Part shown: positions 1,144-62,712 of the stretch, one piece after another
How the letters are laid out: each line of letters starts with the position of its first letter
Numbering within the stretch: position 1 is the stretch's first letter
Source of the DNA: Candidatus Nanopelagicales bacterium
GTDB taxonomy: Bacteria > Actinomycetota > Actinomycetes > S36-B12
DNA length: 64,000 bases
NCBI GenBank assembly: GCA_018402235.1
Contig: JAGYJJ010000002.1
Location: forward strand, 28,069 to 92,068
Direction: 5' to 3'
Program-made: the position numbers and the translations under genes
Notes under the pieces: model-generated
Told to the model about the DNA's origin: nothing
Seen by the model: the letters and a program-made list of their open reading frames with translations, nothing else
The model's database searches: none

Positions 1144-2531
1144 CCAGCGCCTCGGACATGCTGGATCGAGTTCTGTGGTGGGACGCACTCCCCGAGCAGT
1201 TGCGTGAACCCCTGGGTGAACCCCTCGTTGGCCAGGTGGATGCCGATGTCGCGATCATCGGCGCTGGATACACAGGCCTGTGGACCGCCTACTACCTCCA
1301 ACAGCAAGTTCCCAGCCTGCGCATAGCGATCGTGGAAAAGCACATCGCCGGTTATGGCGCTAGCGGCCGCAACGGTGGTTGGGCTTCGGCGCTCTTTCCC
1401 CAGGACCACGAGGCAATTGCCAAACGTGCGGGTCTACCTGCAGCAATCGCGATGCAGCAAGCCATGAACCACAGCGTCGATGAAATTGGTCGCGTGGCCG
1501 CGGATCACGGCTGGGACATCGACTGGGCCAAAGGCGGCACGATCGTCGCGGCGCGAAGCCTCGCCCAGTGGAACGCAATGCGTGAACGAGAGGCGCACCT
1601 GCGTGCCGCAGGCATCGACTCCGATGAACGCTTACTGGATGCACAGCAAACGCTCGACATGATGCACGCCACCGATGTGGTGGGGGGCGTGTACACACCA
1701 CACTGCGCGGCCATCCAGCCAGCGAAACTGGTACGCCACCTTGCCCAACATGTGGTCGAATCGGGTGCGCAGCTTTTTGAGACCAGCCCTGCCCTCGCGG
1801 TGGAACCGGGAATCGTGCGCACTCCCACCGGCAGCGTCCGTGCTCGGTACGTGATCCGAGCAACCGAGGGCTACACCGCCGAAATCCCCGGACAGCGCCG
1901 CACGTTGCTGCCGTTCTATTCGCTGATGGTTGCCACCGAGCCGCTCCCGGAGAGCACCTGGGATCAGATCGGACTGGCAGACCGACCCACATTCTCCGAC
2001 GGTCGCCATCTGGTGATCTACGGCCAGCGCACTGCCGACAATCGGCTCGCCTTCGGTGGACGCGGCGCCCCCTACACCTTCGGTTCCAAGATCCAGTCCC
2101 AAACCGAACTCGATGGCCGCATCCACCGAATGCTCGAGGCGACATTGGTCGATCTGTTCCCGGTCGTGCGGCAGCACCGCTTCACGCATGCGTGGGGCGG
2201 CACGCTTGGTATCTCCCGTGATTGGTGGGCCTCGGTGGGCCTTGACCCGGTGACCGGCATGGGCTGGGCCGGTGGCTACGTGGGCGATGGCGTGGGCACC
2301 TCCAACCTCGCTGGTCGAACGCTGGCGGCACTCATCGCGGGGCGCACCGGCGATCCCCTACTAACGCTGCCCTGGGTAGACCACCGGTCACGTGCATGGG
2401 AGCCAGAACCCCTGCGTTGGGCCGCCACCACCATCGGGCTCAAGGCCACCGAAGCCGCCGACGCGATCGAATCCAAGACCGGCAAGCCGTCGGTTTTCGG
2501 ACGACTCGTCGGCTCCCTCACCGGCCACTAA
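1140..2531 (+). CDS. FAD-dependent oxidoreductase (DAO family, gamma-glutamylputrescine oxidase-like)
   Basis: ADVAIIGAGYTGLWTAYYL dinucleotide-binding motif; GYGASGRNGGWAS motif of DadA/PuuB-type oxidases; ATG overlaps preceding stop. Confidence 0.88.
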   Translation: MTSASDMLDRVLWWDALPEQLREPLGEPLVGQVDADVAIIGAGYTGLWTAYYLQQQVPSLRIAIVEKHIAGYGASGRNGGWASALFPQDHEAIAKRAGLPAAIAMQQAMNHSVDEIGRVAADHGWDIDWAKGGTIVAARSLAQWNAMREREAHLRAAGIDSDERLLDAQQTLDMMHATDVVGGVYTPHCAAIQPAKLVRHLAQHVVESGAQLFETSPALAVEPGIVRTPTGSVRARYVIRATEGYTAEIPGQRRTLLPFYSLMVATEPLPESTWDQIGLADRPTFSDGRHLVIYGQRTADNRLAFGGRGAPYTFGSKIQSQTELDGRIHRMLEATLVDLFPVVRQHRFTHAWGGTLGISRDWWASVGLDPVTGMGWAGGYVGDGVGTSNLAGRTLAALIAGRTGDPLLTLPWVDHRSRAWEPEPLRWAATTIGLKATEAADAIESKTGKPSVFGRLVGSLTGH

Positions 2532-2557
2532 CCTGATAGCAACGACGGGAGAGTCCC

Positions 2558-3733
2558 ATGAACCAACACGGCACGCATCCACTCGATCTCATCGCCTTCG
2601 ACGATCTGCTCAGCGAAGAAGAGCGCAGCATCCAAGATGTGACGCGCACGATTGTGGACGACGTCGTTCGTCCCAAAGTGGCCCACTGGTGGGAAGAAGG
2701 TGAGGTCCCGGCACGGGACTTGATGGCCGCTTTCGGTGAAGCCGGATTGTTGGGCATGCATCTTGAGGGCTACGGCTGCGCGGGAACAACCGCCACGGCC
2801 TACGGGCTTGCCGCCATGGAACTCGAGGCGGGCGACTCTGGCATTCGTTCGATGGTGAGCGTGCAAGGTTCGTTGGCGATGTATGCGATCCATCGTTTTG
2901 GTAGCGAGGAGCAACGTGAGCGCTGGCTACCGGGCCTAGCAAAGGGAAGCCTCATCGGCTGCTTTGGACTAACCGAAGCCGACGCGGGCTCCAACCCCTC
3001 ATCGATGCGCACTCGAGCGCGTCAAGACGGCAGCGACTGGGTGCTCGATGGCAGCAAGATGTGGATCACCAACGGATCGGTGGCCGACGTTGCGATCGTA
3101 TGGGCGCAGACCGACCACGGCATCCGAGGCTTCGTGGTTCCCACGGACACTGCAGGATTCCAGGCGAACGTGGTGCACCACAAGGTTTCCCTGCGGGCAT
3201 CCGTTACCAGCGAATTGGTTTTTCGCGACATGCGTCTGCCGGCCGAAGCGGTGCTGCCCGATGTGACCGGACTCAAAGGTCCCTTGAGTTGCTTGAATGA
3301 AGCTCGATTCGGGATCGTCTTCGGCACCATGGGTGCAGCTCGCGAGTGTTTGGAAACAGCCCTTCGGTATGCCGAAGAACGTGAGCAGTTCGACAAACCA
3401 ATCGGGGCCTTTCAACTCACCCAGAAGAAGCTCGTCGATATGACACTGGAACTTGATAAAGGCATGTTGCTCGCACTTCACCTAGGGCGCCTCAAAGATT
3501 CCGGGAAGATTACCCCTGAGCAGATCAGCGTGGGCAAACTCAATAATGCACGTGAGGCGCTCACGATTGCACGCGAATGTCGATCAATTCTGGGCGGGAA
3601 CGGAATCACCCTGGAGTATCCGGTGATCCGGCACATGAACAATCTGGAATCGGTGTTCACCTACGAGGGCACGAATGAAATGCACACTCTGGTGGTCGGT
3701 CAGGCGCTGACCGGTATCCCGGCATTCCGGTGA
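2558..3733 (+). CDS. gcdH: Acyl-CoA dehydrogenase, glutaryl-CoA dehydrogenase type
   Basis: GCFGLTEADAGSNPSSM, SLRASVTSELVF, RQ/FDKPIGAFQLTQKKLVDM, LGGNGITLEYPVIRHMNNLESVFTYEGTNEMH; resembles glutaryl-CoA dehydrogenases. Confidence 0.85.
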   Translation: MNQHGTHPLDLIAFDDLLSEEERSIQDVTRTIVDDVVRPKVAHWWEEGEVPARDLMAAFGEAGLLGMHLEGYGCAGTTATAYGLAAMELEAGDSGIRSMVSVQGSLAMYAIHRFGSEEQRERWLPGLAKGSLIGCFGLTEADAGSNPSSMRTRARQDGSDWVLDGSKMWITNGSVADVAIVWAQTDHGIRGFVVPTDTAGFQANVVHHKVSLRASVTSELVFRDMRLPAEAVLPDVTGLKGPLSCLNEARFGIVFGTMGAARECLETALRYAEEREQFDKPIGAFQLTQKKLVDMTLELDKGMLLALHLGRLKDSGKITPEQISVGKLNNAREALTIARECRSILGGNGITLEYPVIRHMNNLESVFTYEGTNEMHTLVVGQALTGIPAFR

Positions 3734-58390: not shown

Positions 58391-59980
58391 CTACGCGGAC
58401 AACGAGACGAACCGACCAGAGTGCGCCCCGATCTTCTCGGAAATCGAGTCCACCAACTCGGCTGGAATGGCCGAGTCGACGCTCAACACCATGAGCGAGT
58501 GATCGGTGTCGTCCCGGCTCACCTGCATACCGCCGATGTTGATGTCTGCTCCGCCCAGAAGGTTGCCAACGATGCCTACAACACCGGGCTTGTCGTGATA
58601 GCGGTAGAAGGCAAGGTGGTCGTTGACCGGGACATCCACATCGAAGCCATCCACCTCGACGATCTTTCCCTGGTGGCGTGGGCCCGCAACGGTGCCACCC
58701 ACGCACACCTTCACGCCATCCGTGAGCGTCAAAAGAACGCGGACCAGCGAACGGTGATCTCCGCTATTCGCATCCGTCGTGAGCGCCACTTCCACTCCGC
58801 GTTGCTCGGCGATAACAGGTGCGTTCACGTAAGAAACGGGATCATGAACGAGCATCTGGAAGACACCCTTGAGGGCGGAGAGTTCCAGAACGCGCACGTC
58901 GTGTTCGACAACTTCTCCCAGGACCTCGATGTCGACCCGCTCGACTGCTGCAGGTGCCAGTCCGCACGCGATCGCACCGATTTGCTCAGCCAGCGGCAGT
59001 AACTGCTTGACGTCGTCCTCGATCTGACCGCCTTGGACGTTCACCGCGTCCGGCACAAGTTCGCCAGCGAGCGCTAAGCGAACAGACTTGGCAACAGCGA
59101 TGCCGGCCTTCTCCTGGGCTTCGTCAGTCGATGCCCCAAGGTGCGGAGTTGCGACGACGTTTTCAAGGGTGAACAGCGGCGAGTCAGTACAGGGCTCTTT
59201 CGCATACACATCCAGACCCGCACCGGCAACGCGCCCATCGGCTAGCGCCTTGTAGAGAGCATCTTCGTCGATGATGCCACCGCGGGCCGCATTGATGATG
59301 TGAACGGTCGGCTTGACCTTGGAAAGCGCTTCGTCGCCGATGAGACCTACCGTTTCGGGTGTCTTGGGCAGATGAACGGTGATGAAGTCGGCCTCGGCAA
59401 GGAGTTCATCCAAAGTGACCATCCGCACACCCAGTTGCGCCGCACGGGCCGGCTGAACGTAGGGGTCATAAGCGATGAGGTTCACCCCGAAAGCCGCTAG
59501 CCGCTGCGCAACCAGGATGCCGATCCGACCCAATCCCACAATGCCAACGGTCTTGTCTGCAACCTCAACACCGGTGTACTTCGAGCGCTTCCACTCTCCA
59601 CGGTGCAGGGCGGAATTTGCGGGAACGATGTTTCGAGCGCTCGCGAGCAGAAGACCCACGGCCAGTTCGGCTGCGCTAACAATGTTGGAGGTGGGCGCGT
59701 TGACCACCATCACCCCGGCTTGGGTTGCCGCCTTGACATCGACGTTATCTAGCCCGACGCCGGCCCGGGCTATCACCTTCAGGCGCTTGGCAGCTGCGAT
59801 CGCCTCGGCATCGACCTTCGTAGCCGAGCGCACCAAGATGGCGTCGACATCGACAATTGCCGGCAACAGTTCATCGCGGTTGGCTCCATCGCATTGAATG
59901 ATCTCGAAATCCGGACCTAGTGCCTCAACTGTGGCAGGAGACAACTCTTCAGCAATAAGAACGCGTGATGTGGGCACCAA
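58391..59980 (-). CDS. serA: D-3-phosphoglycerate dehydrogenase
   Basis: RAGVGLDNVDVKAATQAGVMVVNAPTSN, VGIVGLGRIGILVAQRL, C-terminal ACT domain. Confidence 0.97.
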   Translation of the reverse strand: MVPTSRVLIAEELSPATVEALGPDFEIIQCDGANRDELLPAIVDVDAILVRSATKVDAEAIAAAKRLKVIARAGVGLDNVDVKAATQAGVMVVNAPTSNIVSAAELAVGLLLASARNIVPANSALHRGEWKRSKYTGVEVADKTVGIVGLGRIGILVAQRLAAFGVNLIAYDPYVQPARAAQLGVRMVTLDELLAEADFITVHLPKTPETVGLIGDEALSKVKPTVHIINAARGGIIDEDALYKALADGRVAGAGLDVYAKEPCTDSPLFTLENVVATPHLGASTDEAQEKAGIAVAKSVRLALAGELVPDAVNVQGGQIEDDVKQLLPLAEQIGAIACGLAPAAVERVDIEVLGEVVEHDVRVLELSALKGVFQMLVHDPVSYVNAPVIAEQRGVEVALTTDANSGDHRSLVRVLLTLTDGVKVCVGGTVAGPRHQGKIVEVDGFDVDVPVNDHLAFYRYHDKPGVVGIVGNLLGGADINIGGMQVSRDDTDHSLMVLSVDSAIPAELVDSISEKIGAHSGRFVSLSA

Positions 59981-60011
59981 CTGATCCTAGCGGCGGCTGA
60001 ACGTTTCGCAT

Positions 60012-61241
60012 TCAGCGGCGATCGCCGCGTGACTTAGACCACGCCGTGAAAGACGTGATGGAGCCCGAGTGGGGACGGCGCAGCCAGGGCCACGGTTGAA
60101 CCTGCGAAGGTTGTGCAGTTGATGTCACGCGCCGCCAACCAGGAACTGGCGTGAATGTCACAGCGAAAGCGCCGAGCGATATCAGCACCTCTGCTACATC
60201 ACCTCGATAGATGTGCAGCGACCGGCGCTGCGCTAGATCGGCGAGCGCTTCGGTAAGGAACACCAGACGCAGGTACGACAACCGCAGCCGGCGAAGAAGC
60301 GGTTCGTCGAAGATGAATACCACCGGCACATGGGGATTGGCCCGCAGCGCTGGGTCGTCGTCCCCCAGACTCTCTGCGGTCAACCACACGAAGCCGGGAT
60401 CAGCGACGGTGACGGGCTCGCGTGGGCCAGCTGTTGCCTCAACGTCAGTGTCGCGACGCATACGCGGGTCAACGAAGGACCGCGGTTCGGGGACTATCTC
60501 GTCGGGCCACCCCTCGATCGGACAGTCGCTGGCTAGTGGACACCTACCGCACAGCTCAGGAGCGCGTTTGCGCACCTGCCACCGTGAGAAGCCGTAGGGC
60601 TTACCGGTCAAGGCTCCGACCGTCCACTGCCAACCCGACCGATTGGCTGCGCGCGAACCATCGAGCAGATGCCGGAAGAAAAGATCCTCTCCGTCGCGCC
60701 AGCCCCAGCCCTCGCGCACCGTCCAGTGGGATGCCAGCCACATGCGCGCCTGATTCGTCAGATACCCAGCTCGCGTCAGTTCCTGCCACGACTCCTGCAG
60801 GCACGCGGCCTCGGTGTCCCAGGGATTGCGTTCGGGAGGTCCGTCCTCACGCACCGTATAACGCAACGAACGTTTAGTGGCATCCCCCAAACGGGCGTAG
60901 AGATGGCGGGCGTACTCCTGCCACAGCAGTTCATCGCGGAACTTCTCAACATCGACGCTGGGTCCACCGGCAACGAAGTCGTAGACGCGAGGCAACTGCA
61001 GCAGACCATGGCGAATGTAGGGCGACAGACCCGAGGCCCCGCGGGCCGCAACAGGCAGCACCGTGTTCCTGCGCCGCGCATAGCCGGCTACGTCAAATGC
61101 TTGTAGTGCCGCATCGGCCGCTTGCTGTCCGCCGTGTATCGGAGCACCCGCGGGATCACCACTGGCCAGATCCCCCAGATGCTCGCGCACCCACGTGAGA
61201 ACGTTCTGGCGACCCAGATCCGGCGTGGGTAGCGACTTCAT
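60012..61241 (-). CDS. Photolyase/cryptochrome-related flavoprotein with FAD-binding domain first and photolyase alpha/beta-like domain last
   Basis: FAD-binding-7-type ...FRDELLWQEYARHLYARLG...LTRAGYLTNQARMWLASHWTV...LFFRHLLDGSRAANRSGWQWTVG...; then CGRCPLASDCPIEGWP; then VWLTAESLGDDDPALRANPHVPVVFIFDEPLL...FLTEALADLAQRRSLHIYRGDV. Confidence 0.85.
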   Translation of the reverse strand: MKSLPTPDLGRQNVLTWVREHLGDLASGDPAGAPIHGGQQAADAALQAFDVAGYARRRNTVLPVAARGASGLSPYIRHGLLQLPRVYDFVAGGPSVDVEKFRDELLWQEYARHLYARLGDATKRSLRYTVREDGPPERNPWDTEAACLQESWQELTRAGYLTNQARMWLASHWTVREGWGWRDGEDLFFRHLLDGSRAANRSGWQWTVGALTGKPYGFSRWQVRKRAPELCGRCPLASDCPIEGWPDEIVPEPRSFVDPRMRRDTDVEATAGPREPVTVADPGFVWLTAESLGDDDPALRANPHVPVVFIFDEPLLRRLRLSYLRLVFLTEALADLAQRRSLHIYRGDVAEVLISLGAFAVTFTPVPGWRRVTSTAQPSQVQPWPWLRRPHSGSITSFTAWSKSRGDRR

Positions 61242-61251
61242 CACTGCACCT

Positions 61252-61632
61252 TCATGGTCGGGCCTTGCGAATCCGGATTGGCCCCTTGGCGGTCGACGGA
61301 TCGACCACTTGTCCCTTCTGGGTGATCTCCACATTGCCGGATGCAACAAGCCTGCGCGCTGCGCGGCGAGCCGGCTCCATCAAGGTGCGCCAGTCGTCTC
61401 CCCCAACCGCTTGCGCTGCTTCGCTCGGACAGATGCTCGCATCGTGCGCCCGCGCTTCCAGCAACTCGATGATCGTGTTCTCAAGAACCACATCGGCTTC
61501 GCTCACCCGACGCTTGCGGCACGCGTCAGAGCAGAAGCGCACGTCATCCCAGTTACGTTCCCAGGACTTGCGCCAGGCCATTTCCCGGCCACAGGACTTA
61601 CATACCTTCGTGTCCCCTGCTCGGCCAGGCAT
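61252..61632 (-). CDS. DUF2256 + DUF3253-like zinc-ribbon protein
   Basis: [34 protein letters not shown] (DUF2256-like) followed by winged-helix-like [48 protein letters not shown] (DUF3253-like). Confidence 0.8.
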
Positions 61633-61650
61633 GTAGTGGTTGCCAGCGCC

Positions 61651-62712
<1,062 letters not shown>

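Follow-up and report, generated by a model that had tools for sequence, protein, structure and literature searches.

The question raised by this locus is what kind of enzyme is encoded at positions 60012-61241 of the window, the 64,000-nucleotide stretch of a Candidatus Nanopelagicales contig that was analyzed, where an FAD-binding domain precedes a segment resembling the photolyase antenna domain. These positions correspond to exactly one open reading frame, running from ATG to stop on the minus strand and encoding 409 aa. The preliminary description, made from the sequence alone, had proposed an uncharacterised, circularly permuted photolyase/cryptochrome subfamily of unknown substrate, possibly carrying a metal or Fe-S site. 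Our analysis indicates that the gene product is very probably an Fe-S short photolyase-like enzyme of the SPL / NewPHL type, with the FAD domain first, that carries out light-driven repair of cyclobutane pyrimidine dimers (CPDs). The features on which the argument is built are as follows.

60012..61241, minus strand: gene for the probable Fe-S short photolyase-like (SPL / NewPHL-type) protein, 409 aa, ATG start at 61241
60507..61130, minus strand: N-terminal catalytic FAD-binding helical domain, about residues 38-245
60930..60932, minus strand: E104, equivalent of A. nidulans photolyase Glu283, invariant in 95/95 relatives
60753..60755, minus strand: N163, equivalent of A. nidulans photolyase Asn349, invariant in 95/95 relatives
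60801..60803, minus strand: C147, predicted first [4Fe-4S] ligand, aligned with the FeS-BCP cysteine that precedes the CxxC by a long stretch
60522..60551, minus strand: C231-x2-C234-x5-C240, lying between the two domains and predicted to supply the other three [4Fe-4S] ligands
60033..60392, minus strand: C-terminal alpha/beta (Rossmann-like) domain, residues 284-403, a homologue of the DNA_photolyase domain that is N-terminal in canonical photolyases
61252..61635, minus strand: DUF2256 (zinc-finger-like) plus DUF3253 gene, directly upstream of the photolyase, a recurrent neighbour

A scan of a genome collection yielded 250 stretches encoding relatives, the best 80 of which were taken as loci, and further loci were added from whole-genome searches of the host's relatives and class. 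The FAD-first layout was common to at least 110 loci, mostly actinobacterial, and 95 distinct relatives aligned over essentially the whole length of the protein, which makes the FAD-first order a conserved trait of the family and not an artefact. A frameshift, a chimera or a chance fusion was ruled out by these intact full-length relatives with the same layout. A phage origin was likewise rejected, as viral contigs contained no relative and phage records matched the FAD domain only. Several records titled Rubrivirga, Bifidobacterium breve, Myxococcota or Binatia (L062, L067, L075, L100, L091 and L134) carried close relatives of the actinobacterial gene, and the Rubrivirga record (L062) also had the ilvC-serA context described below; at least some of these six are likely to be mislabelled records or mixed bins.

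The N-terminal position given to the FAD-binding helical domain in the preliminary description was confirmed by Pfam, which placed FAD_binding_7 at residues 152-209 (E 1.3e-8) and detected it in all 35 members scanned. In sequence searches of NCBIfam and the PDB, the top matches were CPD photolyases whose alignments were confined to the FAD half. When the family profile was compared with solved sequences, class I CPD photolyases were closest, with an E-value of 1.4e-23 for the A. nidulans photolyase-CPD-DNA complex (1tez), as opposed to 0.003 for the FeS-BCP PhrB, though the latter was aligned through residue 238. The lesion-site residues were mapped through alignment to 1tez, in which Glu283, Trp286 and Asn349 are the residues contacting the CPD. 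In addition to E104 and N163, W107 aligned with Trp286 and was invariant (95/95), and M167 aligned with Met353 and was methionine in 89 of the 95 relatives. Residues D194, N200, W204 and W181 were also invariant in the 95 relatives, and the second aspartate of the DGD motif of the FAD site was replaced in every one of them by serine (S196); the third tryptophan of the canonical chain was not evident in the family sequence. The (6-4)-type His-His motif was absent from all relatives, which instead contained G-[YW]-L-x-N-Q with the CPD-type asparagine. The host's own FeS-BCP carries His-His in GYSHHIIRLM, where the protein studied here has NQ. Judged from these residues, the lesion site appears to be of the CPD type, and CPD repair is the best reading of it. 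The substrate is thus less open than the preliminary description held, given a lesion site of CPD character and published relatives that repair CPDs. Xu et al. reportedly purified an Fe-S- and FAD-containing, CPD-repairing SPL from Rhodococcus fascians.

The linker motif of the protein, CGRCPLASDC, contains C231, C234 and C240. The CxxC...C motif between the domains had been correctly recognized in the preliminary description, which missed its fourth partner, C147. All four positions were cysteine in 95/95 distinct relatives, a finding that strengthens the earlier idea of a metal or Fe-S site, and in an alignment they coincided with the four cysteines of the host's own FeS-BCP. Four Fe-S cysteines occur in a subset of SPLs. 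They are present in every Phr4 and Phr6 (PMC9426592). Synechococcus RS9916 Phr4 has cysteines C169, C254, C257 and C263, which were assigned to an Fe-S complex, and the spacing of 84/3/6 in the family compares with 85/3/6 in that protein (PMC9426592). Because the cysteines match the FeS-BCP ligands and their spacing is nearly that of Phr4, a [4Fe-4S] cluster predicted at C147, C231, C234 and C240 is well supported by the sequence.

The same cysteines give rise to an alternative reading, in which the cluster marks a domain-swapped relative of the FeS-BCP, or prokaryotic (6-4), photolyases, and the enzyme is a (6-4) photolyase. In its favour, the four cysteines occupy the positions of the FeS-BCP ligands, and Phr4/5/6, which are similar, were proposed by the authors of an mBio 2022 study to have (6-4) activity (PMC9426592). 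For Phr4/Phr5, this proposal was drawn from the cysteines and from UV-C phenotypes, and the light dependence of the protection of E. coli in that study was not significant (PMC9426592). Against this reading stand the replacement of His-His by the CPD-type motif in all relatives, the far closer similarity of the family profile to class I CPD photolyase than to PhrB, and the presence of a separate FeS-BCP in the host genome. The FAD-domain tree, which covered the family, FeS-BCP, class I photolyases and the FAD-first proteins of Deinococcus and Alphaproteobacteria, pointed in the same direction. A fully supported branch (100/100) had FeS-BCP on one side and, on the other, the family together with the remaining groups. 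Class I CPD photolyases formed a clade of their own (100/99), with the family outside it, and a single clade of all FAD-first proteins (the family and the Deinococcus and alphaproteobacterial proteins) gave a p-AU of 0.353. We therefore consider (6-4) repair improbable and retain CPD repair as the preferred reading. In a mechanism of CPD repair, the helical domain would bind FAD, and W204 and W181 would form a short Trp chain for its photoreduction; from excited FADH-, an electron would pass to a CPD that has flipped into the pocket of E104, W107, N163 and M167, and it would return once the dimer has split. The [4Fe-4S] cluster that the four cysteines are predicted to hold, at the junction of catalytic domain and linker, would probably be structural. 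By analogy with published NewPHLs, the enzyme probably acts on single-stranded DNA.

The photolyase gene sits between ilvC and serA, directly downstream of the DUF2256-DUF3253 gene on the same strand, and the order ilvC - DUF2256/DUF3253 - photolyase - serA (58391-62676, minus strand) was kept across the genus and in parts of the family. The repair cassette is thus placed between two amino-acid biosynthesis genes. Photolyase and DUF gene are also immediate neighbours in the culturable relative Ornithinimicrobium sediminis (L115). The DUF gene was located upstream, on the same strand and within 70 bases, in 45 of 110 loci and downstream in 7 of 110, and it was found in none of the 35 comparison loci. 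Of the genomes in the class sample, DUF3253 was present in 11 of the 17 that had a strong match to this photolyase and in 35 of the 230 that did not, a count that ignores phylogeny. DUF3253 went unmentioned in the part of the literature covered by our search, and the two papers there that mention DUF2256, as judged by their titles, were not about photorepair. The DUF2256-DUF3253 protein is a candidate partner of the photolyase. The host encodes two further photolyases, an FeS-BCP (C3:184134-184577, L145) and a class I CPD photolyase (C3:1068971-1069549, L001), giving three in a 2.2 Mb genome. At three other loci, the FAD-first photolyase had an FeS-BCP-type (prokaryotic 6-4) photolyase gene no more than about 4 kb away (L096, at 1546-3021 on the plus strand, L091 and L147).

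The repeated coupling to an uncharacterised zinc-finger-like gene, together with the two other photolyases of the host, could be taken to mean that the protein no longer repairs DNA and acts as a cryptochrome-like light sensor, signalling through its DUF2256-DUF3253 neighbour. This we regard as very improbable, since lesion-contacting residues invariant across 95 sequences are unexpected after a loss of repair, and the neighbour is missing from about half of the loci. Light-driven CPD repair remains the reading that we carry forward.

The C-terminal domain was the boldest point of the preliminary description, and one that Pfam by itself does not decide. The Pfam check of domain order gave a divided result: FAD_binding_7 lay above the cut-off, and DNA_photolyase was placed C-terminal to it, at residues 298-356, with an E-value (0.024) under the cut-off; a weak match of this kind was found in 5 of the 35 members scanned, with 0.024 as the best. 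The C-terminal placement of the alpha/beta domain was nevertheless supported by three kinds of comparison. The hhalign score of the domain against 18 canonical N-terminal domains was 34.8, compared with a maximum of 18.6 in 100 column shuffles and 10.9 for the reversed profile, and Deinococcus relatives with the same layout reached a score of 47.7 with a probability of 93.9% over about 100 columns. When a profile of residues 278-409 was searched against all PDB sequences, 9 of the 10 matches were photolyase/cryptochrome N-terminal domains (best E 0.053). When the domain was modelled by itself with AlphaFold2 (pLDDT 85.6) and compared by Foldseek, the six best PDB matches were all photolyases or cryptochromes (probability 0.99-1.00, query TM 0.54-0.64), and no match had an E-value < 0.001.

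An AlphaFold2 model of the full two-domain protein, as called for by the preliminary description, was confident (pLDDT 94.1, pTM 0.92). Foldseek matched this full model to photolyases with a query TM of only about 0.30-0.47, a low value that would fit an aligner that follows sequence order and so mostly matches one of the two swapped domains. In such an arrangement, the C-terminal alpha/beta domain would pack on the FAD domain in the place of the usual N-terminal domain, and it may shield FAD or hold an antenna. That the segment is instead an unrelated domain with a chance likeness to the antenna domain, as might be argued from the sub-threshold Pfam matches and from the C-terminal domain of alphaproteobacterial NewPHL-like proteins, for which profile comparison found no detectable match to either the actinobacterial or the canonical domain, is the least probable of the alternatives in view of the shuffle controls, the PDB profile matches and the Foldseek matches. 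Since no permutation event or mechanism was demonstrated, “inverted domain order” is safer wording than “circularly permuted”; the inverted order itself stands. FAD-first, four-cysteine photolyases are also encoded on Deinococcus plasmids (L137, L138 and L144). In their C-terminal domain, they resemble the canonical alpha/beta domain more than the actinobacterial family does, and they are possible intermediates.

Several published systems resemble the family in part. A passage of PMC13274461 citing Emmerich et al. 2020 describes NewPHLs/SPLs as repairing CPDs in ssDNA and as having an inverted domain topology. As far as they are described there and in PMC9426592, NewPHLs share with the present family the N-terminal catalytic domain, followed by a C-terminal domain, and the CPD repair that is predicted here. 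The alphaproteobacterial NewPHL-like proteins differ in that they do not contain the CxxC...C cluster motif, as observed in the FAD-first photolyases L139, L140 and L141, and in that their C-terminal domain, the “Z-domain” of the literature, has no detectable similarity to the domain here. According to a passage of PMC9649867 on Xu et al. 2021, SPL is a CPD photolyase and contains an Fe-S cluster. As described in PMC9649867 and PMC9178010, the class resembles the present family in its CPD-type FAD domain, in the Fe-S cluster attributed to it and in having no N-terminal alpha/beta domain; it is described there as lacking an alpha/beta domain, whereas a homologous one is C-terminal here, a difference of description and not of compared sequences. 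Phr4/Phr5 and Phr6 of marine Synechococcus / Cyanobium, like the present family, have an FAD domain followed by a DNA photolyase domain, that is, a reversed domain order, and four Fe-S cysteines at almost identical spacing; unlike the actinobacterial family, they are cyanobacterial, consist of two ORFs in many strains and were proposed to be (6-4) enzymes (PMC9426592). Phr7 has a C-terminal Z-domain and no cysteines (PMC9426592). FeS-BCP (PhrB, 4dja) shares the four cysteine ligands at equivalent positions of the FAD domain and differs in its canonical domain order, its His-His (6-4) active site and its separate, distant clade. Class I CPD photolyase (A. nidulans, 1tez) is closest in FAD-domain sequence and shares the lesion-pocket Glu, Trp and Asn, but has the alpha/beta domain first and no Fe-S cluster.

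Because NewPHL, SPL and Phr4/5/6 are already FAD-first in the literature, the protein does not represent a new kind of photolyase. These published groups, some with four cysteines, already define FAD-first photolyases, and the novelty claimed in the preliminary description, which was to fall if the family was already characterised, does not hold. The architecture was described in 2020-2022; what is new here is an uncultured actinobacterial member.

It has been proposed that FAD-first Fe-S photolyases are the nearest to the ancestor from which the photolyase/cryptochrome superfamily arose. A further-reaching interpretation, which we put forward tentatively and regard as unlikely, is that the family constitutes a distinct actinobacterial lineage of Fe-S CPD photolyases, in which the alpha/beta antenna domain has been preserved C-terminally and not lost, with the DUF2256-DUF3253 protein as a dedicated partner in cluster assembly or lesion recognition. 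The name SPL implies loss of the alpha/beta domain; if this interpretation is true, the domain would be preserved at the C-terminus in the actinobacterial family. The family shows that an antenna-type domain can be C-terminal with its homology still recognisable, a point relevant to whether SPLs lost the domain, never had it or swapped it. The family also bears on the conflict in the literature over the four-cysteine cluster and (6-4) repair: because the predicted four-cysteine cluster co-occurs here with a CPD-type active site, the cysteines alone would be no sign of (6-4) repair.
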